In this document: positions 19,328 through 29,744 of the stretch, in pieces | Position numbering within the stretch: the first letter of the stretch is position 1 | Layout: each line of letters starts with the position of its first letter | NCBI RefSeq assembly: GCF_000190595.1 | Contig: NC_015167.1 | Location: forward strand, 918,501 to 982,500 | Length of the DNA: 64,000 nucleotides | DNA from: Cellulophaga lytica DSM 7489 | Lineage (GTDB): Bacteria; Bacteroidota; Bacteroidia; Flavobacteriales; Flavobacteriaceae | Direction: 5' to 3' | Program-made: the position numbers and the translations under genes | Notes under the pieces: model-generated | The model's database searches: none | Told to the model about the DNA's origin: nothing | Seen by the model: only the letters and a program-made list of their open reading frames with translations

Positions 19328-20701
19328 ATGCAAGTAAAAATTTTATCATATTATAGGTTACACAAAATACCTATATTATTAGCACTTGCAAGCATACTTT
19401 TTTACTACACCTTTGCTTACCATTTGGTACGCACAGATTTTGTTAAGCTTATTACTTTAGCCACTGCTCTATTTTTTATATGCTATAAACTTATACAGTT
19501 TGAAAAATGGAACTTTAAATTTTTACTTACTGCTGGTATACTATTTAGACTTGTTTTTTTATGTGTAGAGCCAATGCTCTCGCAGGATTTTAATAGGTTT
19601 ATTTGGGACGGAGAATTGGTTTTACAAGGGTTAAACCCATACCTACAAACACCAGATACTATTGTAGAACTAGGCAAAATTAGTATCAATAATGCTGCTC
19701 ACTTATACGCTAGTATGGGAGAAATTAGCGCAAAGAACTTTAGCAACTACCCTCCTTTAAATCAGCTTATATTTGCTTTAGCTGCATTTTTCTCTGGCAA
19801 AAGTATGGTTGGTGGCATTATTACAATGCGCATAATTATACTCCTAGCAGATATTGGTGTTGTATACTTTGGCAGAAAATTATTAACACACCTTAATTTA
19901 TCATCACACCTAGTCTTTTGGTATTTTTTAAATCCTTTAGTTGTTATAGAATTAACTGGAAACCTTCATTTTGAAGGTGTAATGCTTTTCTTTTTTATTT
20001 GGAGTATGTATTTACTTTCTCAAAAAAAATACCTGCTTGCAGCTCCAATATTAGCATTATCTATAGCAGTAAAACTGGTTCCGCTTATGTTTTTACCTCT
20101 ATTTATTAGACATTTAGGCATAAAAAAGGCTGTTCCTTTTTACGTAATTATAGGCACCACTATTCTAGTTCTCTTATTCCCTTTTTATTCACCAGAATTT
20201 ATAAATAATTACGCTACTACAATAGGACTTTGGTTTAATAATTTTGAATTTAACGCTAGCATTTACAACATAATTAAAAAGGTAGCAGAAGCTAATGGTA
20301 GTAGAGATTGGGAAACCATAAAAGCATTTGGCAAAATATCTCCTTATGTAACTATTGCTATGGTATTACTTTTCTCTTTTTTAAGAAACAACAAAACCAT
20401 TACCAACTTATTTACCAGTATGTTATGGGTTTTAACCATTTATTATTTTATATCTACAACCATACATCCTTGGTACATTATTTTTTTAGTTTTATTAAGT
20501 ATTTTTACCAAGTTTAGATATGCTATTTTATGGTCTGCCGCTGTTTTTTTAAGTTATTGGGCATATTCAAATCCGGACTTTAAAGAGCATTTAGGAATTT
20601 TAACTATTGAGTATATTGCAATTTTTAGCTTTATTATTTACGAAATACTTAGACTAAAAAGGCAAAACCTACTATATCCAAAAAAGAAACTTCTAAATTA
20701 G
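19328..20701 (+). CDS. Polyprenyl-linked sugar transferase, DUF2029/mannosyltransferase-like
   Basis: A 457-residue integral membrane protein with about 10 hydrophobic helices. The first extracytoplasmic loop has RLVFLCVEPMLSQDFNRFIWDGELVLQGLNPY, containing the acidic pair found in GT-C enzymes, and the phrase NYPPLNQL is typical of DUF2029/GT87-like mannosyltransferases. A 179-bp gap separates it from the previous gene, so it may have its own promoter. I infer lipid-linked sugar use on the outer face of the inner membrane. The acceptor is unknown. Confidence 0.8.
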   Translation: MQVKILSYYRLHKIPILLALASILFYYTFAYHLVRTDFVKLITLATALFFICYKLIQFEKWNFKFLLTAGILFRLVFLCVEPMLSQDFNRFIWDGELVLQGLNPYLQTPDTIVELGKISINNAAHLYASMGEISAKNFSNYPPLNQLIFALAAFFSGKSMVGGIITMRIIILLADIGVVYFGRKLLTHLNLSSHLVFWYFLNPLVVIELTGNLHFEGVMLFFFIWSMYLLSQKKYLLAAPILALSIAVKLVPLMFLPLFIRHLGIKKAVPFYVIIGTTILVLLFPFYSPEFINNYATTIGLWFNNFEFNASIYNIIKKVAEANGSRDWETIKAFGKISPYVTIAMVLLFSFLRNNKTITNLFTSMLWVLTIYYFISTTIHPWYIIFLVLLSIFTKFRYAILWSAAVFLSYWAYSNPDFKEHLGILTIEYIAIFSFIIYEILRLKRQNLLYPKKKLLN

Positions 20702-20720
20702 GCTAGCTCAATATAATTTG

Positions 20721-20728
20721 TACATTTG
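20721..20728 (+). promoter_or_regulatory. Probable -7 box of the arginine operon leader
   Basis: TACATTTG fits TANNTTTG. No good TTG is visible 19-20 bases upstream, so this is a half-match. A start near 20733-20735 would put the leader ORF ATG (20737) almost at the 5' end of the transcript. Confidence 0.5.
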
Positions 20729-20736
20729 ACCCTGTA

Positions 20737-20820
20737 ATGAGCAACAACACAAACATATTATTTTTTAGCGGGGTTTCTACACCCTTAGCTACGCTTGTTC
20801 CTACACGCCGCCGCCCGTAA
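20737..20820 (+). CDS. argL: Arginine leader peptide (27 codons, three tandem CGC)
   Basis: An ATG ORF encodes MSNNTNILFFSGVSTPL followed by ATLVPTRRRP and a stop. Codons 24-26 are CGC CGC CGC (20806-20814), just before CCG and TAA. CGC is uncommon in this AT-rich genome, where Arg is mostly AGA. The ORF lies at the start of the transcript of a nine-gene arginine operon and is followed at 20837-20866 by a hairpin with five T. This is the architecture of his/thr/trp leaders: scarcity of charged tRNA-Arg would stall a ribosome on the triplet and change downstream folding. The symbol is my label only. Expression of the peptide is inferred, not shown. Confidence 0.65.
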   Translation: MSNNTNILFFSGVSTPLATLVPTRRRP

Positions 20821-20824
20821 GGGT
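20781..20824 (+). promoter_or_regulatory. Leader hairpin enclosing the arginine codons
   Basis: ACCCTTA (20781-20787) can pair with TAAGGGT (20818-20824), where the second arm overlaps the leader stop codon. The 30-base loop holds the CGC triplet. GGGT at 20771-20774 could alternatively pair with ACCC at 20781-20784. A ribosome stalled on the Arg codons would break the larger hairpin. Confidence 0.5.
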
Positions 20825-20836
20825 ATTACTTCTATT

Positions 20837-20866
20837 TTGGAATTAGGTGAGTCCAATTCCGTTTTT
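20837..20866 (+). terminator. Attenuator terminator before the arginine operon
   Basis: GGAATT (20839-20844) pairs with AATTCC (20855-20860); an overlapping alternative is TTGGA (20837-20841) with TCCAA (20852-20856). TTTTT follows at 20862-20866. The terminator lies 16 bases after the leader stop codon and 44 bases before the first structural gene, where a constitutive terminator would silence the operon. Confidence 0.65.
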
Positions 20867-20909
20867 CAAGACATAAAATTTTACAATACTAACATTAAAG
20901 CAACATTCA

Positions 20910-21536
20910 ATGAGAATTGTAATTGCTAATGCATCGCATATAAAATATGCGCAAATAATTTCTGATACAATAACAGAATCTGCTAAAGTACGCGGTACTG
21001 GTATTGCCAAACGTACGCCAGAATATATTTTAAAAAGGCTACAAAATGGTAATGCTGTTATTGCTTTAGACGGAGAAAAATTTGCAGGATTTTGCTATAT
21101 AGAGGTTTGGGGACATAATAAATTTGTTGCCAATTCTGGACTTATTGTTCATCCTGATTTTAGAAATCTAGGACTTGCAAAAAAAATAAAAGAGCGAATT
21201 TTTAAACTCTCCAGAGAAAAATTTCCTGATGCAAAAATATTTGGTATTACTACAGGTTTAGCTGTTATGAAAATGAACTACGAACTTGGTTACAAGCCTG
21301 TTACTTTTTCTGAACTTACAGATGACCCTGAATTTTGGAAAGGCTGCCAAACTTGTAAAAATTTTGATGTATTAACCAGAACAGAACAAAAAATGTGTCT
21401 TTGTACAGGGATGTTATATGATCCTGCTGCAAAGCAAAAAGCTACCCAAAAAAAAGAGGTAGATGGTAAAGTATTTAAAAGATTAAAAAGTATAAAAGAG
21501 CAATTGTTCTTAAAAAAGAAAAATAAAGATGAGTAA
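20910..21536 (+). CDS. GNAT acyltransferase at the head of the arginine operon
   Basis: A 208-residue protein. The GNAT acetyl-CoA motif is NSGLIVHPDFRNLGLAKKI, preceded by the beta4 strand. It probably supplies the N-acylglutamate that starts arginine synthesis, since no argA or argJ is present and Bacteroidota arg operons typically begin with such a gene. After the fold comes a Cys-rich segment, CQTCKNFDVL then MCLCTGML, giving CxxC and CxC that could bind zinc. The C-terminus is Lys-rich. It overlaps argG by 8 bp. Whether the acyl donor is acetyl- or succinyl-CoA is open; the operon's ArgF points to succinyl. Confidence 0.78.
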   Translation: MRIVIANASHIKYAQIISDTITESAKVRGTGIAKRTPEYILKRLQNGNAVIALDGEKFAGFCYIEVWGHNKFVANSGLIVHPDFRNLGLAKKIKERIFKLSREKFPDAKIFGITTGLAVMKMNYELGYKPVTFSELTDDPEFWKGCQTCKNFDVLTRTEQKMCLCTGMLYDPAAKQKATQKKEVDGKVFKRLKSIKEQLFLKKKNKDE

Positions 21537-22713
21537 ATTAGTTTTAGCATATAGTGGTGGATTAGATACGTCTTACTGCGCAAAATATTTATCAAAAGAC
21601 AAAGGTTTTGAAGTACACGCTGTTAGTGTAAATACTGGCGGTTTTACTAAACAAGAAATTTCTAACATTAAAAAGAAAGCCATAGAATTAGGCGCAAGCA
21701 GCTATACTTCTATAGATGCTGTGCAGACTTTTTACACTAAAGTTGTAAAATATTTAATTTTTGGTAATGTTTTAAAAAACAACACATACCCATTGTCTGT
21801 TAGTGCAGAGCGTATTGTACAAGCTATAGAAATTGTAAATCACGCTAAAAAAATAGGCGCAAAATATATTGCTCACGGTAGTACTGGCGCTGGTAATGAC
21901 CAAGTTAGGTTTGATATGATTTTTCAGATCATTGCACCAGAAATAGAAATTATTACTCCTATTAGAGACAATCAATTATCTAGAGAAGTAGAAATTGCAT
22001 ATTTAAAAGAAAATGGTGTTGACTATCCTTGGGAAAAAGCCAAATACTCTATTAACAAAGGGCTTTGGGGAACTTCTGTTGGCGGTGATGAAACACTTAC
22101 GTCACATTCTCCGCTACCAGACACCGCATACCCTAGTCAGCTTGAAGAAAGAAACCCTTTAGATGTAAAACTAACCTTTACAAAAGGAGAACTTACTGCA
22201 ATTAATGATGAACAAGGTAAACCAATTAACAATATCACTAAGTTAAATGATGTTGCTTCTAAATTTGCTATTGGTAGAGACATACACGTTGGCGATACAA
22301 TTATTGGTATTAAAGGTAGAGTTGGTTTTGAGGCTGCTGCATCATTACTAATTATAAAAGCACACCATTTACTAGAAAAACATACGCTTACAAAATGGCA
22401 ACAATACCAAAAAGAACAACAAGGTAATTTTTATGGTATGTTATTGCATGAGGGCAATTATTTAGATGAAGTAATGCGTAACATTGAGGCTTTTCTTAAA
22501 GACACGCAAAAAAATGTCTCTGGAGATGTATTTGTTACACTACATCCGTACAGGTTTGAGCTTAATGGTATAGCATCTAAACACGACCTTATGAACGCTT
22601 CTTTTGGTAGTTACGGTGAAATGAATAAAGGATGGACTGCTGACGATGCTAAAGGATTTATTAAAATTTTATCTAACTCTGGTAAAATATACAATCACGT
22701 AAATAAAAATTAA
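21529..22713 (+). CDS. argG: Argininosuccinate synthase
   Basis: A 394-residue protein joining citrulline and aspartate with ATP. The N-type ATP-pyrophosphatase loop is LAYSGGLDTSYC at residues 4-15. AHGSTGAGNDQVRF (citrulline/aspartate binding) and SINKGLWGTSVGG follow. It is translationally coupled to the GNAT gene (8-bp overlap) and 6 bp before argC. Its length is about that of family members. Confidence 0.97.
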   Translation: MSKLVLAYSGGLDTSYCAKYLSKDKGFEVHAVSVNTGGFTKQEISNIKKKAIELGASSYTSIDAVQTFYTKVVKYLIFGNVLKNNTYPLSVSAERIVQAIEIVNHAKKIGAKYIAHGSTGAGNDQVRFDMIFQIIAPEIEIITPIRDNQLSREVEIAYLKENGVDYPWEKAKYSINKGLWGTSVGGDETLTSHSPLPDTAYPSQLEERNPLDVKLTFTKGELTAINDEQGKPINNITKLNDVASKFAIGRDIHVGDTIIGIKGRVGFEAAASLLIIKAHHLLEKHTLTKWQQYQKEQQGNFYGMLLHEGNYLDEVMRNIEAFLKDTQKNVSGDVFVTLHPYRFELNGIASKHDLMNASFGSYGEMNKGWTADDAKGFIKILSNSGKIYNHVNKN

Positions 22714-22719
22714 AATAGG

Positions 22720-23694
22720 ATGATTAACATAGGTATTATTGGTGGTTCTGGGTATACAGGTGGCGAGTTAATAAGGTTACTTTTAAATCACCCTAAAGCA
22801 AACATAAATTTTATTTACAGTACTACTAGAGCTGGTAAAGATATTACAACAGCACATCCAGATTTATTAGGACAAACAGATCTTAAGTTTACTGGTGATG
22901 TAAATTTAAATGTAGACCTTGTTTTTTTATGCTTGGGACACGGCAACTCTACCACTTTTTTAACACAGAATTCATTTTCAAGTAACACTAAAATTATAGA
23001 TTTAAGTAATGATTTTAGATTACATAATGATGCTATTCTAAACAAAAAAGAATTTATTTACGGTTTACCAGAAACCAATAAGAACAAAATAAAAACAGCT
23101 AATTACATAGCTAATCCAGGTTGTTTTGCAACAGCAATTCAGCTTGCATTACTACCATTAGCAAAAGCAAATATTTTACACAATAGCGTGCATATAAATG
23201 CTGTAACTGGTAGTACTGGTGCTGGTGTAAAACCAAGTGACTCTACCCATTTTAGTTGGCGAAATAATAATGTTTCTTGGTACAAACCATTTACACACCA
23301 ACATTTAGGTGAAATTGGTGAAAGTTTAATGAGCTACAACTATGAAATTGGAGAGTTACTGTTTCTTCCGCAAAGAGGAAACTTTGCCAGAGGCATTTTT
23401 GCAACTGCTTACACCAAATACAAAGGTAGTATAGAAGATGCTTATGAGCTATACACTAATTTTTATGCTGATGCGAAATTTACAAATGTTTCTAATACAG
23501 AAATTCATTTAAAACAAGTAGTAAACACCAACCAATGCCATTTGCACTTACACTTACATAATGGCAATTTATTAGTTACATCTGCTATAGATAATTTACT
23601 AAAAGGTGCATCTGGGCAAGCGGTACAGAATATGAATTTAATGTACGGTTTTAATGAAGATGAAGGTTTAAAACTAAAAGCATCCGCATTTTAA
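22720..23694 (+). CDS. argC: N-acyl-gamma-glutamyl-phosphate reductase
   Basis: A 324-residue NADPH enzyme forming the acylated glutamate semialdehyde. It starts with the Rossmann GIIGGSGYTGGELIRLL, has ANPGCFATAIQLAL with the catalytic Cys, and GSTGAG. It lies 6 bp after argG and 30 bp before proC. The length agrees with the family, and no odd features are seen. Confidence 0.95.
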   Translation: MINIGIIGGSGYTGGELIRLLLNHPKANINFIYSTTRAGKDITTAHPDLLGQTDLKFTGDVNLNVDLVFLCLGHGNSTTFLTQNSFSSNTKIIDLSNDFRLHNDAILNKKEFIYGLPETNKNKIKTANYIANPGCFATAIQLALLPLAKANILHNSVHINAVTGSTGAGVKPSDSTHFSWRNNNVSWYKPFTHQHLGEIGESLMSYNYEIGELLFLPQRGNFARGIFATAYTKYKGSIEDAYELYTNFYADAKFTNVSNTEIHLKQVVNTNQCHLHLHLHNGNLLVTSAIDNLLKGASGQAVQNMNLMYGFNEDEGLKLKASAF

Positions 23695-23724
23695 CATCAA
23701 TCTAAAAAAATAAAAAAACCAACT

Positions 23725-24522
23725 ATGAAACTAGCTATTATAGGTGCCGGAAACTTAGGATTATCTATTGCAAAAGGTATTTTAAACTCTAATGGAGCAA
23801 CAACAATGTACTTAACAAAAAGAAGTACAGAAAGTATTGAAGAGTATAAAACTTATGGCAACGTAACTGTTACTGCAGACAATAGAGAGGCAGTAAAAAA
23901 TTCTGATGTCCTAATTTTTGCTGTACAACCCAATCATTTTGAAGCTATTTTAAATGATGTTAAAGACTTGCTTACAGAAAAGCATATTGTAATATCAACC
24001 ATAACTGGTTTTAGCATTAAAAAAATTGAAGCTGTACTAGGTAAAGACACCTATATTATTAGAAGTATGCCAAACACAGCTATTTCTGTAGGGCAATCTA
24101 TGACCTGCGTTTGTAGCAACGAAATGGGAAAAAAAAGAATAGAACTGGCTAAGGCCATTTTTAATAGAATGGGACATTCGTTAGAAATTCCTGAAAGTCA
24201 AATGCAAGCTGCAACTGTTATATGCGCAAGCGGAATAGCTTTTTGGATGCGACTAATACGCGCTACTACACAAGGAGCAATACAACTAGGTTTTGATGCT
24301 AAAGAAGCACAAGAATTGGCAATGCATACGTGTAACGGTGCCGCTAGTTTATTAATAGAATCTGGCAATCATCCAGAGCAAGAAATAGATCGTGTAACAA
24401 CGCCTATGGGCTGTACTATTAAAGGTTTAAATGAGATGGAGCACCAAGGATTAAGTTCTTCTTTAATTAGAGGAATTGTAGCTTCGTTTGATAAAATAAG
24501 TGAGTTTAAAGTAAAAAATTAA
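23725..24522 (+). CDS. proC: Pyrroline-5-carboxylate reductase
   Basis: A 265-residue protein. It has the NAD(P) motif AIIGAGNLGLSIAKG at the N-terminus, followed by SMPNTAISVGQSMT. The C-terminal dimer region has VTTPMGCTIKGLNEME where the family has 'VTSPGGTT'. It makes proline from the glutamate semialdehyde that forms cyclic pyrroline-5-carboxylate. Presence inside the arginine operon, between argC and argD, is a recurring Bacteroidota arrangement and would place proline formation under the same arginine leader. Confidence 0.92.
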   Translation: MKLAIIGAGNLGLSIAKGILNSNGATTMYLTKRSTESIEEYKTYGNVTVTADNREAVKNSDVLIFAVQPNHFEAILNDVKDLLTEKHIVISTITGFSIKKIEAVLGKDTYIIRSMPNTAISVGQSMTCVCSNEMGKKRIELAKAIFNRMGHSLEIPESQMQAATVICASGIAFWMRLIRATTQGAIQLGFDAKEAQELAMHTCNGAASLLIESGNHPEQEIDRVTTPMGCTIKGLNEMEHQGLSSSLIRGIVASFDKISEFKVKN

Positions 24523-24524
24523 GT

Positions 24525-25658
24525 ATGAATTTATTTGATGTATACCCTTTATATAATGTTACTCCTGTTTCTGCAAAAGGTAGCCAGGTAATAGATGATA
24601 AAGTTCAAGAATATTTAGATTTTTATGGTGGCCATGCAGTAATTTCTATAGGACATTCTCACCCGCATTACGTACGCAGAATTAAAGAGCAATTAGATAA
24701 AATTGCCTTTTATAGCAATGCTGTACAAAACCCATTACAAGGTGAGTTAGCAGAGAAATTAGTGCAACTGTCTAACTGTACAGACTACAATTTGTTTTTA
24801 TGTAACTCTGGTGCAGAAGCCAATGAAAATGCATTAAAATTAGCATCATTCTACACCAACAAATCTAGAGTTATTGCTTTTAATAACGGATTTCACGGCA
24901 GAACATCTGCTGCTGTAGCTGCTACAGATAATACTGCAATAAATGCGCCTATAAACAAACAACAAAAAGTAACTTTTTTAGCCTTTAATGATATAGAAGC
25001 TTTTACTATTGAAATTGAAAAAGATGATGTATGTGCGGTTATTTTAGAGGCTGTACAAGGTGTTGGTGGTTTAGACGAGCCTACTACAGAGTTTTACCAA
25101 AAAATAGAAGCTTTATGTAAAAAACACAATGTTGTTTTAATTGCAGATGAAGTACAATCTGGCTACGGAAGAACAGGTGAGTTTTTTGCTTATCAGCACC
25201 ATAACATAAAACCAGATATTGTAACAATTGCCAAAGGTATGGGCAATGGTTTTCCGGTTGGTGGTGTTCTAATACAAGAAAAAATTAAAGCCTCTTACGG
25301 TATGTTAGGTACTACTTTTGGAGGCAACCATTTGGCTTGCGTGGCTTGCTTAGCTGTTTTAGAAGTTATAGAACAGGAAGATTTGATACGCAATGCTGCT
25401 AAAATGAATTCTTACTTTTTGCAAAAAGCTGCTACCATACCACAAATTAAAAAAGTAAAAGGTCGCGGGTTAATGCTAGGACTTCAGTTTGATTTTGAAG
25501 TTGGAGAACTTAGAAAAAAATTAATATACAATCAGTTTGTATTTACAGGCGGTGCTAAAGACAAAACACTATTACGTATTTTACCTGCACTAAACATAAC
25601 AACAGCTTTAATAGATGTATTTTTTGATGCCTTACAAGCAGAGTTAAAAGAATTATAA
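24525..25658 (+). CDS. argD: Acylornithine aminotransferase (class III PLP)
   Basis: A 377-residue class III aminotransferase. It has the phosphate-cup NSGAEANENALKLA (94-107), GFHGRTSAA, IADEVQSGYGRTG (207-218), and the PLP lysine in TIAKGMGNGFPVGG (Lys237). It converts the acylated glutamate semialdehyde to acylornithine. Start ATG 24525 lies 2 bp after proC, and the stop overlaps the ArgF start by 1 base. It is slightly shorter than typical ArgD (about 390-400), with no motif lost. Confidence 0.95.
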   Translation: MNLFDVYPLYNVTPVSAKGSQVIDDKVQEYLDFYGGHAVISIGHSHPHYVRRIKEQLDKIAFYSNAVQNPLQGELAEKLVQLSNCTDYNLFLCNSGAEANENALKLASFYTNKSRVIAFNNGFHGRTSAAVAATDNTAINAPINKQQKVTFLAFNDIEAFTIEIEKDDVCAVILEAVQGVGGLDEPTTEFYQKIEALCKKHNVVLIADEVQSGYGRTGEFFAYQHHNIKPDIVTIAKGMGNGFPVGGVLIQEKIKASYGMLGTTFGGNHLACVACLAVLEVIEQEDLIRNAAKMNSYFLQKAATIPQIKKVKGRGLMLGLQFDFEVGELRKKLIYNQFVFTGGAKDKTLLRILPALNITTALIDVFFDALQAELKEL

Positions 25659-26596
25659 TGAAAAATTACGTATCCATAACAAACATAGATTCACTACCCA
25701 ATTGGGTTGATGAAGCCCTAGAAATAAAGAAAAATCCGAAGAAATATAAAAACTTAGGAGAAGATAAAACCATTGTATTATTATTTTTTAATAACAGCTT
25801 AAGAACACGGCTAAGCACACAAAAAGCAGCCCAAAACTTAGGTATGGAAGTTATTGTTATGAATTTTGGTTCTGAAGGTTGGACACTAGAATTTACAGAT
25901 GGCACTGTTATGGACCAAGGCAAATCTGAACACGTAAAAGAAGCTGCACAAGTGGTTTCTCAGTACTGTGATGTTATTGGTATTAGAGCCTTTGCCAATT
26001 TACAAGATAAAGAAGAAGACGAGGCAGAGTTGGTTATTAACGGATTTATAAAACACGCTACGGTTCCTATTTTAAATATGGAAAGTTCTGTAGGACACCC
26101 GTTACAAGCATTGGCAGATGCTATTACTTTGGCAGAAAACAACACAAAACCTAAACCTAAAGTTGTACTTTCTTGGGCTCCACATCCTAAGGCTTTACCA
26201 CATGCGGTGGCAAATTCTTTTATAGAAATGATGCATTTGCAAGATGCTGACTTTGTAATTACACACCCAAAAGGATACGAGTTAAATACTAATATTACAA
26301 AAGGTGCTACTATAGAATATGACCAAGAAAAGGCGTTAGAAAATGCCGATTTTGTGTACGTTAAAAACTGGAGTAGTTACCAAAATTACGGTCAGGTTTT
26401 AAATCAAGATAAAAACTGGACAATTACTTTAAAAAAATTAGGAGCTGCTAAATTTATGCACTGCTTACCTGTACGTAGAAATGTAATTGTAGAAGATGCT
26501 GTTTTAGACAGCAACCAATCTTTAGTAATAGAACAAGCCAACAACAGAACTTTTGCTGCACAAATAGCATTAAAAAAAATATTAGAAAACCAATAA
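25658..26596 (+). CDS. argF': N-succinylornithine carbamoyltransferase (ArgF' type)
   Basis: A 312-residue transcarbamylase. The carbamoyl-phosphate motif is SLRTRLSTQKA at 47-57, and the characteristic FMHCLPVRRNV comes near the C-terminus. The 80-residue loop reads TVMDQGKSEHVKE. The position that is Glu92 in Xanthomonas acetylornithine carbamoyltransferase and Pro90 in the Bacteroides succinylornithine enzyme is Ser90 here. Published swaps show Ser at this site gives succinylornithine specificity, so this pathway probably uses succinylated intermediates. The next gene is 2 bp away. Confidence 0.88.
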   Translation: MKNYVSITNIDSLPNWVDEALEIKKNPKKYKNLGEDKTIVLLFFNNSLRTRLSTQKAAQNLGMEVIVMNFGSEGWTLEFTDGTVMDQGKSEHVKEAAQVVSQYCDVIGIRAFANLQDKEEDEAELVINGFIKHATVPILNMESSVGHPLQALADAITLAENNTKPKPKVVLSWAPHPKALPHAVANSFIEMMHLQDADFVITHPKGYELNTNITKGATIEYDQEKALENADFVYVKNWSSYQNYGQVLNQDKNWTITLKKLGAAKFMHCLPVRRNVIVEDAVLDSNQSLVIEQANNRTFAAQIALKKILENQ

Positions 26597-26598
26597 CT

Positions 26599-27378
26599 AT
26601 GGCACAAAAATTATCCATTGTAAAAATTGGCGGTAACGTAATAGAAAACAAAGAAGAACTGAGTAAGTTTTTAACTGCTTTTTCTAAAATTGAAGGTCTA
26701 AAAATATTAGTTCACGGTGGCGGAAAATTAGCTACAGAACTTGGAAAAAAACTAGGGATAGAATCTACACTTATTAACGGAAGGCGAATTACAGACGCAC
26801 AAAGTTTAGAATTAATTACAATGGTATATGGTGGTTTGGCTAATAAAAACATTGTGTCTAAATTACAAGGTGTAAACTGCAATGCCATAGGATTAAGTGG
26901 CGCAGATGCTAATGTTATACAAGCAGTAAAACGCCCTGTAAAAGATATAAATTATGGTTTTGCAGGTGATATTGTAGCTGTTAACAGCAACGCCATTAAT
27001 ACAATGTTACAAAATAAATGGACGCCTGTTTTTTGTGCACTTACCCATAATAAATCCGGGCAATTACTAAACACCAATGCAGATACCATTGCCTCTGAAA
27101 TTGCTATTGCTATGAGTAGTTTATATGACACTACCTTGTATTATTGCTTTGAGAAAAAAGGTGTTTTATTAGACATAACAAATGAAAATTCTGTAGTAAA
27201 AAAAATAAATACAGAAACCTATAAAGAACTTTTAGATAGTAAGGTAATTGCAGATGGTATGTTACCCAAACTTGAAAACTGCTTTAATGCTTTACACAAA
27301 AAAGTAACTACGGTTTGCATAGGAGATGTTTCTATGTTAGATAAAAATGAAACGCTTTACACCACTATAACACTATAA
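26599..27378 (+). CDS. argB: N-acylglutamate kinase
   Basis: A 259-residue amino-acid kinase fold. It carries KIGGNVIENK at the start, LVHGGGKLATELGKKLGIE (the acyl-glutamate loop), AIGLSGADANVIQA and GMLPKLENCFNAL. It phosphorylates the gamma-carboxylate of N-acylglutamate. The absence of an N-terminal helix suggests a hexamer-type arginine-inhibited form is unlikely. It sits between argF' and argE with 1-2 bp gaps, the densest part of the operon. Confidence 0.94.
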   Translation: MAQKLSIVKIGGNVIENKEELSKFLTAFSKIEGLKILVHGGGKLATELGKKLGIESTLINGRRITDAQSLELITMVYGGLANKNIVSKLQGVNCNAIGLSGADANVIQAVKRPVKDINYGFAGDIVAVNSNAINTMLQNKWTPVFCALTHNKSGQLLNTNADTIASEIAIAMSSLYDTTLYYCFEKKGVLLDITNENSVVKKINTETYKELLDSKVIADGMLPKLENCFNALHKKVTTVCIGDVSMLDKNETLYTTITL

Positions 27379-27379
27379 C

Positions 27380-28444
27380 ATGGAACAAAAACTGCTTACT
27401 GAAAAGGCCATAAATTTATTAAAGGAGTTAATATCTATACAGTCTTTTTCTTCTGAGGAGGATAAAACTGCAGACGCAATAGAAAACTGGTTTACAAGTT
27501 TTAACATTCCGTTTACTAGAGATAATAACAATGTTTATGCAAAAAATAAACATTGGGATCCTAGCAAACCAACGTTGCTTTTAAACTCGCATCATGACAC
27601 TGTAAAACCAAATTCAGCTTATACAAAAGACCCTTTTAATCCGCATATAGAAGATGGTAAATTGTATGGCTTAGGCAGTAATGACGCTGGTGGTTGTTTG
27701 GTGTCTTTACTAGCTACATTTGTTCACTACTACAATGCAGAGAACTTAAACCATAACATACTTATGGTGGCTTCTATGGAAGAAGAATCTGCCGGACCAA
27801 ATAGCTTAAGAGGCTTGTTACCTAAGTTACCAAAAATAGATGTTGCTATTGTTGGCGAACCTACTTTAATGCAGTTGGCTATTGCAGAAAAAGGACTTAT
27901 TGTTTTTGATGCCGAAGTTAAAGGAACACCATCTCATGCAGCGCACCCAAATAATGACAATTCTATTTACAATACCATAAAAGTACTAGAGTGGTTTAAA
28001 AATTACACCTTTAATAAGGTTTCTGATGTTTTAGGCGAAGTAAAACTTACAGTAACACAAGTTAATGCAGGCAAGCAACACAATGTTGTACCAGCTAAGG
28101 TAGACTTGGTTATAGATGTTAGGGTTAATGATAAATACACAAATAAAGAAGTTGCAGAAATGCTGCAAAAAGAAGCTCCTTGCAAAATTACTCCTCGTGG
28201 TTTAAAGTTAAATTCATCAGCTATAGATATTAGCCATCCTTTAGTACAATCTGGCATTGCTTTAGGGAGAGAAACTTATGGTTCTCCTACATTATCAGAC
28301 CAAGCAGCGCTTACGTGTCAGTCTTTAAAACTAGGACCAGGAGATAGCACAAGATCACATTCTGCAGATGAATTTATTTATGTAAACGAAATTGAAGAAG
28401 GTATAGGTTTATACATTAAAATATTAAATGGGTTTCTACAATAA
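27380..28444 (+). CDS. argE: N-acyl-ornithine/citrulline deacylase (M20 family)
   Basis: A 354-residue zinc peptidase-fold enzyme. It has LLLNSHHDTVKPN (metal His/Asp), YGLGSNDAGGCLVSLL (bridging Asp), SMEEESAGPNS (catalytic Glu and metal Glu), IVGEP and the dimerisation-domain HAAHP. It releases the acyl group, and with a succinylornithine-type ArgF' upstream the product is citrulline from N-succinylcitrulline. It is 1 bp after argB and 25 bp before argH. Confidence 0.9.
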   Translation: MEQKLLTEKAINLLKELISIQSFSSEEDKTADAIENWFTSFNIPFTRDNNNVYAKNKHWDPSKPTLLLNSHHDTVKPNSAYTKDPFNPHIEDGKLYGLGSNDAGGCLVSLLATFVHYYNAENLNHNILMVASMEEESAGPNSLRGLLPKLPKIDVAIVGEPTLMQLAIAEKGLIVFDAEVKGTPSHAAHPNNDNSIYNTIKVLEWFKNYTFNKVSDVLGEVKLTVTQVNAGKQHNVVPAKVDLVIDVRVNDKYTNKEVAEMLQKEAPCKITPRGLKLNSSAIDISHPLVQSGIALGRETYGSPTLSDQAALTCQSLKLGPGDSTRSHSADEFIYVNEIEEGIGLYIKILNGFLQ

Positions 28445-28469
28445 GTAATTACCTAAAAAACACAAGATT

Positions 28470-29744
28470 ATGAAACTTTGGGACAAAGGATTTAGTACCG
28501 ATAAAAAAATAGATCATTTTACTGTTGGTAATGACAGGGAGTTAGATTTGCTACTTGCTAAGTACGATGTTATTGCGTCTAAAGCACACGCAAAAATGCT
28601 TGGCAAAATAGGACTTATTACAGCACAAGAAGCAGAGAATTTGGTAGCAGAACTTGATGCCATTGCACAAACCATAGAAGAAGGCTCTTTTGTTATTGAA
28701 GATTCTTTTGAGGATATGCACTCTAAAATAGAATTTGTATTAACCGAAAAATTAGGTGACACCGGAAAAAAAATACACACAGCACGTTCTAGAAATGATC
28801 AGGTTTTGGTTGCAATGCATTTGTATTTAAAAGATGAATTACAAGAAATTAAGAGCGAAGTAAAAGTTTTATTTAACCTGCTTTTAAATCTTGCTGATAA
28901 ATATAAAAATGTGCTATTGCCTGGTTATACACATTTGCAAATTGCTATGCCATCTTCATTTGGACTTTGGTTTTCTGCCTATGCAGAAAGCTTAATAGAT
29001 GATTTGTATTTTGTTGATGCCGCCTACAAAATAGCAGATCAAAATCCGCTTGGTAGTGCTGCTGGGTACGGCAGTTCTTTTCCTATAGACAGAGATTTTA
29101 CTACTAAAGAAATGGGCTTTGCTACTCAAAAATACAATGTTGTAGCGGCACAAATGGGACGTGGTAAGGTAGAAAAAGCTACTGCCTTTGGTATTAGTAA
29201 TGTTGCTGCTACCCTATCTAAAATGGCTATGGATATTTGCTTGTATATGAGTCAGAATTTTAATTTTATTTCTTTCCCAGATGAGCTTACAACGGGTTCT
29301 AGCATTATGCCGCACAAGAAAAATCCAGATGTTTTTGAGTTAATACGTGGTAAATGCAATAAATTACAAGCTATACCTAACCAGTTAATTTTAATAACAA
29401 ACAACTTACCTAGTGGTTACCACAGAGATTTACAATTGGTTAAAGAGGTAATTATACCTGCAATACAAGACATTAAAGCTTGTTTAGAAATACTGACTTT
29501 TAGCTTAAAAGAAGTACGTGTAAATGAAGCCATTTTAGAAGACCCTAAATACGATTATTTATTTAGTGTAGACACGTTAAACGAGTTGGTTTTAAGCGGA
29601 ATACCATTTAGAGATGCTTATAAAAAAATGGGCAAAGAAATTAATGAAGGTACTTTTTCTCCTAAAAAAGATATTAAACACACACACCAAGGCAGTTTAG
29701 GTAATTTATGCTTGCAAGAAATTAGAAATAAATTAATTGATTAA
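28470..29744 (+). CDS. argH: Argininosuccinate lyase
   Basis: A 424-residue fumarase/aspartase-fold enzyme. It has the signature GSSIMPHKKNPDVFELIRGKC and HTARSRNDQVLVAMHLY, with TGEL-type substrate loops. It cleaves argininosuccinate to arginine and fumarate and is last gene of the arg operon. It is a little shorter than the usual 450-470, mainly at the C-terminus. A terminator follows at 29775. Confidence 0.95.
   Translation: MKLWDKGFSTDKKIDHFTVGNDRELDLLLAKYDVIASKAHAKMLGKIGLITAQEAENLVAELDAIAQTIEEGSFVIEDSFEDMHSKIEFVLTEKLGDTGKKIHTARSRNDQVLVAMHLYLKDELQEIKSEVKVLFNLLLNLADKYKNVLLPGYTHLQIAMPSSFGLWFSAYAESLIDDLYFVDAAYKIADQNPLGSAAGYGSSFPIDRDFTTKEMGFATQKYNVVAAQMGRGKVEKATAFGISNVAATLSKMAMDICLYMSQNFNFISFPDELTTGSSIMPHKKNPDVFELIRGKCNKLQAIPNQLILITNNLPSGYHRDLQLVKEVIIPAIQDIKACLEILTFSLKEVRVNEAILEDPKYDYLFSVDTLNELVLSGIPFRDAYKKMGKEINEGTFSPKKDIKHTHQGSLGNLCLQEIRNKLID

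Follow-up and report, generated by a model that had tools for sequence, protein, structure and literature searches.

An arginine-codon leader ahead of the arginine operon of Cellulophaga lytica as a probable sensor of tRNA-Arg charging in Flavobacteriaceae

In a 64,000-nucleotide stretch of the genome of Cellulophaga lytica DSM 7489 (NC_015167.1, positions 918,501 to 982,500; the window), a short open reading frame (ORF) ending in arginine codons and three hairpins, P1, P2 and P3, lie in front of an arginine operon (Table 1). We propose, with a probability of about 0.6 and on the basis of sequence comparison, that the region 20721-20909 acts as a sensor of tRNA-Arg charging whose read-out is something other than a conserved intrinsic terminator. 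The evidence for the sensor is firmer than that for its read-out. That the Arg codons serve as a sensor for the arginine operon appears highly probable, and tRNA-Arg charging is put forward as the signal because the codons, their place and the operon argue for it, whereas a Rho-type read-out is conceivable at somewhat less than even odds.

An earlier note on this DNA, made from the letters alone, had described a 27-codon ORF ending in CGC CGC CGC CCG and a stop codon, and both its coordinates and its codons were verified in the window sequence (translation MSNNTNILFFSGVSTPLATLVPTRRRP followed by stop; CCG at 20815-20817 and TAA at 20818-20820 after the Arg triplet). An ORF with an Arg-Arg-Pro-stop end is found 84-98 nucleotides (nt) 5′ of the first operon gene in 78 of 80 named loci, which were the best named ones by match (L001-L080); of the two exceptions, L020 ends in RFRPRP and L076 is truncated by its contig, with the Arg codons retained. 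In 167 distinct leaders, found by a pattern requiring the P3 core and therefore no measure of the frequency of that core, the codon preceding the last CGC encodes Arg in 157 (CGT 108, CGC 47, CGA 1, CGG 1) and the one before it in 115 (CGC 56, CGT 59). The Arg codons are under selection: they vary synonymously between relatives, while the body of the peptide, judged by eye, is strongly different between genera, which is the picture of kept Arg codons in a varying context that the earlier note had suggested looking for in an alignment. In 77 leaders (the 80 named loci minus L027, L032 and L076), 318 of the 2051 residues are arginine, compared with 107 of 4109 residues in 12 genes of the window. 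Because AGA dominates in these 12 genes (n = 107: AGA 67, CGT 16, AGG 10, CGC 8, CGA 5, CGG 1), the leader avoids the common Arg codon of the genome; CGC, which had been called rare, is so in this genome (8/107), but relatives also use CGT.

The sequence TACATTTG at 20721-20728 is presumably a -7 box of the Bacteroidota type, for which we take TAnnTTTG to be the consensus. A relaxed version, TAnnTT[TA][GA], ends 5-9 nt 5′ of the leader ATG in 77 of the 80 named loci, compared with 26 of 986 ATGs in the window, and the exact consensus occurs 5-20 nt 5′ of the ATG in 40/80 versus 9/986. With this predicted box position, the ORF would be near-leaderless. The first ATG 3′ of the box shares the frame of the Arg codons in 75 of the same 77 loci as used for the arginine share, where one third would be expected; the in-frame ATG was picked inside the open stretch, and the open frame itself was not used as evidence. 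If the usual box-to-start distance applies here, the 5′ untranslated region would be only a few nt long. The arginine leader peptide as such was thus supported by conserved Arg codons and a likely promoter just 5′ of the ATG, and the lack of conserved Arg codons, which the earlier note had named as speaking against its proposal, was not what the relatives displayed.

The mean z-scores of the hairpins over 89-90 of the 167 leaders are -1.48 for P1, -2.31 for P2 and -1.77 for P3, with flanks near zero; P1 remained without column scoring, as the alignments leave its arms out of register. In an alignment of P2 and P3 (A1, 95 sequences), 97.1% of the cells are paired compared with 89.7% after shuffling, both sides change in 8 of 12 pairs (7 of 8 for P3 alone), and the covariation score was reached by none of 500 shuffles. 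In the window, P3 is composed of GGAATT (20839-20844), an A bulge, GG-UGAGU-CC and AATTCC (20855-20860), and its core is near-invariant: AGGUGNGUCC. The core pattern AG[GA]UGNGU[CU]C, with a P2-like sequence 5′ of it, was seen in 164 loci of a set of 170 that had been selected for protein similarity. In this set, the genomes behind L081-L110 overlap in part with those of L001-L080, and L111-L170 are a choice of 60 loci from the better-scoring matches that were listed out of 269 matching genomes. Of the six loci off the pattern, L118 and L119 deviate only before GG, L149 and L158 are diverged, and for L128 and L143 fuller loci (L238 and L237) have GGTGTGCCC. Seventeen further genomes were searched, and the core was seen in only two (L224, L226) of the 14 loci read. 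P2 occurs as a covariant form, CGCAC-GUUU-GUGCG, in L111, L112 and L115, where the ORF continues past the usual stop. The distance from P3 to the first gene is 49 nt, a stretch that is unstructured (z +0.19), and the C/G ratio 3′ of P3 is 3.58 over the 167 leaders compared with 1.11 in 22 control regions.

Three further ideas on these hairpins were discarded. Reuse of P3 elsewhere in the genome was rejected, given that the 12-mer of P3 occurs once as an exact copy and its one-mismatch sites (six) are no more than control-like (five for a reversed pattern). A likeness of the core to a piece of ribosomal RNA was dropped because the inner pair covaries, and pairing of the P3 loop or of the freed P2 arm with another region was rejected, as a consistent partner is absent.

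The earlier note had interpreted P3 and its T tract as an intrinsic terminator (20837-20866), with a ribosome stalled on the Arg codons permitting an antiterminator, as in a classic attenuator, and we regard this explanation as rather improbable. The hairpin itself (20839-20860, followed by T5 in the window) is conserved and covarying, but five or more U residues 3′ of P3 are found in only 9 of 167 leaders, those of Cellulophaga and a few others, and a strict terminator scan of 20650-20920 found no terminator-like site, which is the weak point of the terminator claim. P3 was consequently rejected as a conserved intrinsic terminator, although 26 of 80 leaders sampled from the 167 hold some terminator-like site at -6 kcal/mol, compared with three in shuffles. 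The eight strongest of these sites consist of P2 and a T-rich spacer, and P2 as a terminator by itself is plausible in some species only. A further point in favour of classic attenuation is the his leader of the same genome (hisG locus L244), a classic-looking attenuator by its sequence, in which MRNKNTHHHHFTPCYQAS followed by stop precedes a hairpin of -13.5 kcal/mol running into the T-rich TTTTTTGTTTTT; the best terminator-like site of the arg leader in the window reaches -6.1 kcal/mol. The Arg codons of the arg leader also directly adjoin its stop codon, which the His codons of the his leader do not.

The switch required by such an attenuator was not supported. The hairpin that had been drawn around the Arg triplet (20781-20787 with 20818-20824) can pair on paper but is exact in only 2 of the 80 named loci, both from Cellulophaga. 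Folding for mutually exclusive structures, a check that the earlier note had called for, gave no conserved antiterminator in the consensus fold or in folds with ribosome-covered bases masked, and no region is a consistent partner of the freed P2 arm, the best one, near P1, accounting for about 193 of 835. In the masked folds, in which P2 is zero under the ribosome by construction, the median probability of P3 over 167 leaders was 0.76 with the ribosome on the Arg codons, 0.83 with the ribosome on the stop codon and 0.61 in the free leader; for the window sequence the values were 0.93, 0.50 and 0.98. In the window, a ribosome on the Arg codons therefore gives, if anything, a higher P3 probability than one on the stop codon, the opposite of what the terminator of an attenuator needs. 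Of the stalled-ribosome attenuation proposed before, the Arg leader peptide is supported, while its switch is not, as the U-tract is not conserved, an antiterminator was not found and P3 is predicted to form under the stall.

We hypothesize instead the following course of events for a charging sensor with another read-out. Transcription would start a few bases 5′ of the ATG, so that the leader ORF would be loaded with a ribosome nearly at the RNA 5′ end, and the pace of this ribosome across the CGY Arg codons would report on tRNA-Arg charging. A ribosome stalled on the Arg codons would keep P2 open, and after termination and departure of the ribosome P2 would close, while P3 would be able to form in both states; among the conserved elements, P2 alone has a state that necessarily depends on the ribosome. 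In its closed form P2 would, together with P3 and the exposed stretch rich in C and poor in G, promote factor-dependent termination of the Rho type ahead of the first arg gene, which a stalled ribosome would prevent. Rho is present, and the C-rich stretch 3′ of P3 is compatible with Rho loading but no proof of it. For the partner that the P3 core calls for, we name no candidate factor. More tentatively, and at odds clearly below even, the leader may represent a new mode of attenuation, in which a leaderless Arg ORF, a stop codon in a hairpin loop and a P3 AGGUGNGUCC core recognised by RNA polymerase or a factor replace the intrinsic terminator, and which would stand in for ArgR across much of the Flavobacteriaceae, in tandem in many of them and with a candidate aptamer in some genera.

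Several points weigh against this proposal. A ribosome on the Arg codons leaves the stretch 3′ of P3 uncovered and has no evident way to bar Rho, and the excess of C there may merely keep the start site open. Without a ribosome, P3 has a probability above 0.5 in no more than 99 of the 167 leaders, and the terminator-like sites in 26 of 80 leaders leave room for a minority of species that may terminate intrinsically. Furthermore, a covariance model of the leader (R1) matched none of the 19 genomes listed for genus g128, probably Flavobacterium, which is a guess only. Six g128 loci (L213-L218) have another near-leaderless leader with CGG codons, such as MNKTSLHITSLSRTNRPTTSPEVRML followed by stop, which resembles the first leader of the tandem arrangements described below, lies about 260-290 nt 5′ of the same acetyltransferase gene and is without P2 and P3.

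Among the remaining explanations, control of first-gene translation or of mRNA stability rather than of transcription seems unlikely to us. Mycobacterial leaderless short ORFs with single-codon runs reportedly act on translation and would provide a precedent. An upstream Arg ORF that blocks rbf translation in Staphylococcus aureus is another, according to the accessible part of PMC13009471. However, the 49 nt between P3 and the first gene lack structure, and nothing visible hides the start. The leader might also encode an arrest peptide, with free arginine making the nascent chain ending in RRP stall at the stop codon, so that the stall and not tRNA charging would be the signal, which we hold to be distinctly improbable. 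TnaC stalls similarly with Trp, and Pro follows the Arg codons in 160 of 167 leaders, with the stop codon next in 155; however, at least seven distant leaders continue beyond that stop (L111, L112, L115, L144, L145, L148, L167), the upstream peptide is variable, and Pro and stop serve hairpin P2 too. A chance ORF without function is hardly credible, as the comparison contradicts it: 78 of 80 relatives keep the RRP-stop end at the same place, and Arg codons, start and hairpins are conserved.

The leader is confined to part of one family as far as strong matches are concerned. R1 found 16 sites with E < 1e-10 among 395 genomes of the phylum, all in Flavobacteriaceae and one per genome; at E up to 0.01, 46 of the 395 match, those beyond the strong sites weakly, and at 1e-4 matches occur in 22 of 296 genomes of the order, all Flavobacteriaceae. 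Both surveys were run with strict filters, by which weak sites are lost. The genome of C. lytica itself has one strong site and five weak ones. Weak matches outside Flavobacteriaceae were dismissed, the core being absent in the 14 loci scanned (L199-L212). Of 20 genomes of the family without the first gene, 18 are also without full-length argG, and four have weak R1 matches only; the match in G017 is a core-less leader 5′ of its argG. The C-terminal domain of ArgR (PF02863), the only part of the protein searched for, was found in 0 of 199 genomes of the family, compared with 8 of 14 control genomes, including a Bacteroides. Nothing relevant in Rfam matched the region 20690-20930, even at E up to 10, so that T-box and riboswitch are unmatched, and at gathering threshold it returned two tRNAs only for the whole window. 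Control of arginine synthesis in Flavobacteriaceae without ArgR is not described in the literature searched, and the conserved Arg-codon leader offers a direct and testable answer. Its conserved P3 core without a U-tract bears on how a stalled ribosome signals to RNA polymerase in Bacteroidota.

Ribosome-mediated attenuators are known for the his, trp, leu and thr operons. The arg leader resembles them in its short predicted ORF, which lies close to the presumed 5′ end and contains codons for the product of the pathway (78/80 named loci), and in its place 5′ of a cognate operon, here of arginine-biosynthetic genes; it differs in that U-tract and antiterminator are not conserved, the Arg codons sit next to the stop codon, this stop lies in a hairpin loop and a P3 core is conserved. 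Leaderless polycysteine ORFs of mycobacteria, which are said to begin the RNA and to hold a run of a single amino acid ahead of biosynthesis genes, resemble the arrangement predicted here, whereas the arg leader concerns arginine, belongs to another phylum and has conserved P2 and P3. In the available text of PMC13236596, ilvB1 of M. tuberculosis is under a ribosome-mediated attenuator. In rbfL of S. aureus, a small ORF senses arginine supply through Arg codons close to its end, a gauge similar to that proposed here, but the accessible part of PMC13009471 describes AGA/AGG codons, overlap with the binding site of the next gene, a biofilm regulator as target and the opposite direction. Among Bacteroidetes RNA motifs, Bacteroid-trp, a likely cis-regulator according to Table 1 of PMC2864571, is in Rfam and has no match to the arg leader. 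The GUCCY-hairpin is listed there without an Rfam entry and was compared by name only; P3, which mostly reads GUCC plus purine, does not agree with that name, but the two could still be the same. Clues for leader attenuation of amino-acid operons in F. psychrophilum are given in general terms in the accessible text of PMC9723704, and leader-like small ORFs of B. thetaiotaomicron are mentioned in that of PMC7366714. A comparable arg leader was not found in the available parts of PMC2965389, PMC4833913, PMC4997734 and PMC8632094. The element is not described in the full-text literature searched, a scope outside which most subscription journals and all supplements lie, so an earlier description is possible.

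The operon comprises, in this order, a GNAT acetyltransferase gene, argG, argC, proC, argD, a carbamoyltransferase gene of the N-acetylornithine-carbamoyltransferase type, argB, an ArgE/DapE-like gene and argH. The nine arginine genes counted before are reached only with proC and the unnamed acetyltransferase included. The first gene has no NCBIfam match at 1e-10, and several operon genes score under the NCBIfam cut-off. Among the matches listed, Cellulophaga omnivescoria is the closest named relative, with 99% in the first protein.

Table 1. Elements of the arg leader and the operon behind it, in window coordinates
Feature	Position	Strand	Remark
Putative -7-like promoter box TACATTTG	20721..20728	+	ends 8 nt 5′ of leader ATG
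Near-leaderless leader ORF, 27 codons	20737..20820	+	ATG at 20737, ends RRRP-stop
Hairpin P1, within leader ORF	20766..20791	+	fold of L081; region mean z -1.48, 89 leaders
CGC CGC CGC, proposed sensor	20806..20814	+	three Arg codons
Hairpin P2 (GCCC-GTAA-GGGT)	20813..20824	+	stop codon in loop; mean z -2.31, 90 leaders
Hairpin P3, AGGTGAGTCC core	20839..20860	+	covariation in alignment A1
T5 3′ of P3, after one G	20862..20866	+	terminator tail of the earlier note; not conserved
Unstructured stretch before first gene	20867..20909	+	z +0.19; C > G in relatives
Arginine operon	20910..29744	+	GNAT acetyltransferase first, argH last

The window has only one leader, which corresponds to the second one in a tandem arrangement seen elsewhere. 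A first Arg-rich ORF, such as MKNLKNKIRCTVPGFPVRFRRRY followed by stop, lies 5′ of a leader of the window type in 27 of 56 distant loci compared with 19 of 1120 shuffles; the 56 are those of 60 loci that could be used. Among the 27 first leaders, that of L156 seems to be spurious and the box distance given for L157 is an artefact. In 22 of the 27 the box stands 4-5 nt 5′ of the ATG and in two others 12 nt, and the second leader frequently begins with GTG or TTG. Tandem Arg leaders are found, for example, in L158, L161 and L148, and also in L224 and L226.

Another element at the 5′ end of arg leaders is a near-invariant 34-nt motif with a variable tetraloop (M34, AACGAAAGGGGCUNNNGCCGACGAUUUAGAGUUA), present in 13 of 299 genomes of the family with one copy each (loci L250-L261, L237, L238, L240 and L241; in L240 from about base 630). 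In the 12 loci fetched, it lies directly 3′ of a -7-like box and 5′ of an acetyltransferase gene; argG lies 3′ of it in G017, G051 and G115, and also in G311, which is outside this sample. Ten of 13 distinct copies fold with a closing stem UAUUAAC/GUUAAUA and three differently, and an Rfam match was absent in the four loci searched. By its sequence and place, M34 is a candidate aptamer of the arginine pathway, and tandem leaders with an aptamer-like motif nearby would mean that layers of sensing are exchanged on one operon.

Flavo-1 RNA (RF01705) occurs near the arg locus in L214 (66-145, plus strand, 77.7 bits, above gathering) and in L241 (253-394, minus strand, 31.7 bits, below gathering). 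Finally, L223 and L220 have divergent Arg leaders (ending in FDFRRRLLA and IPFYTRR, respectively, each followed by stop) 5′ of the acetyltransferase gene, and then hairpins without the P3 core.
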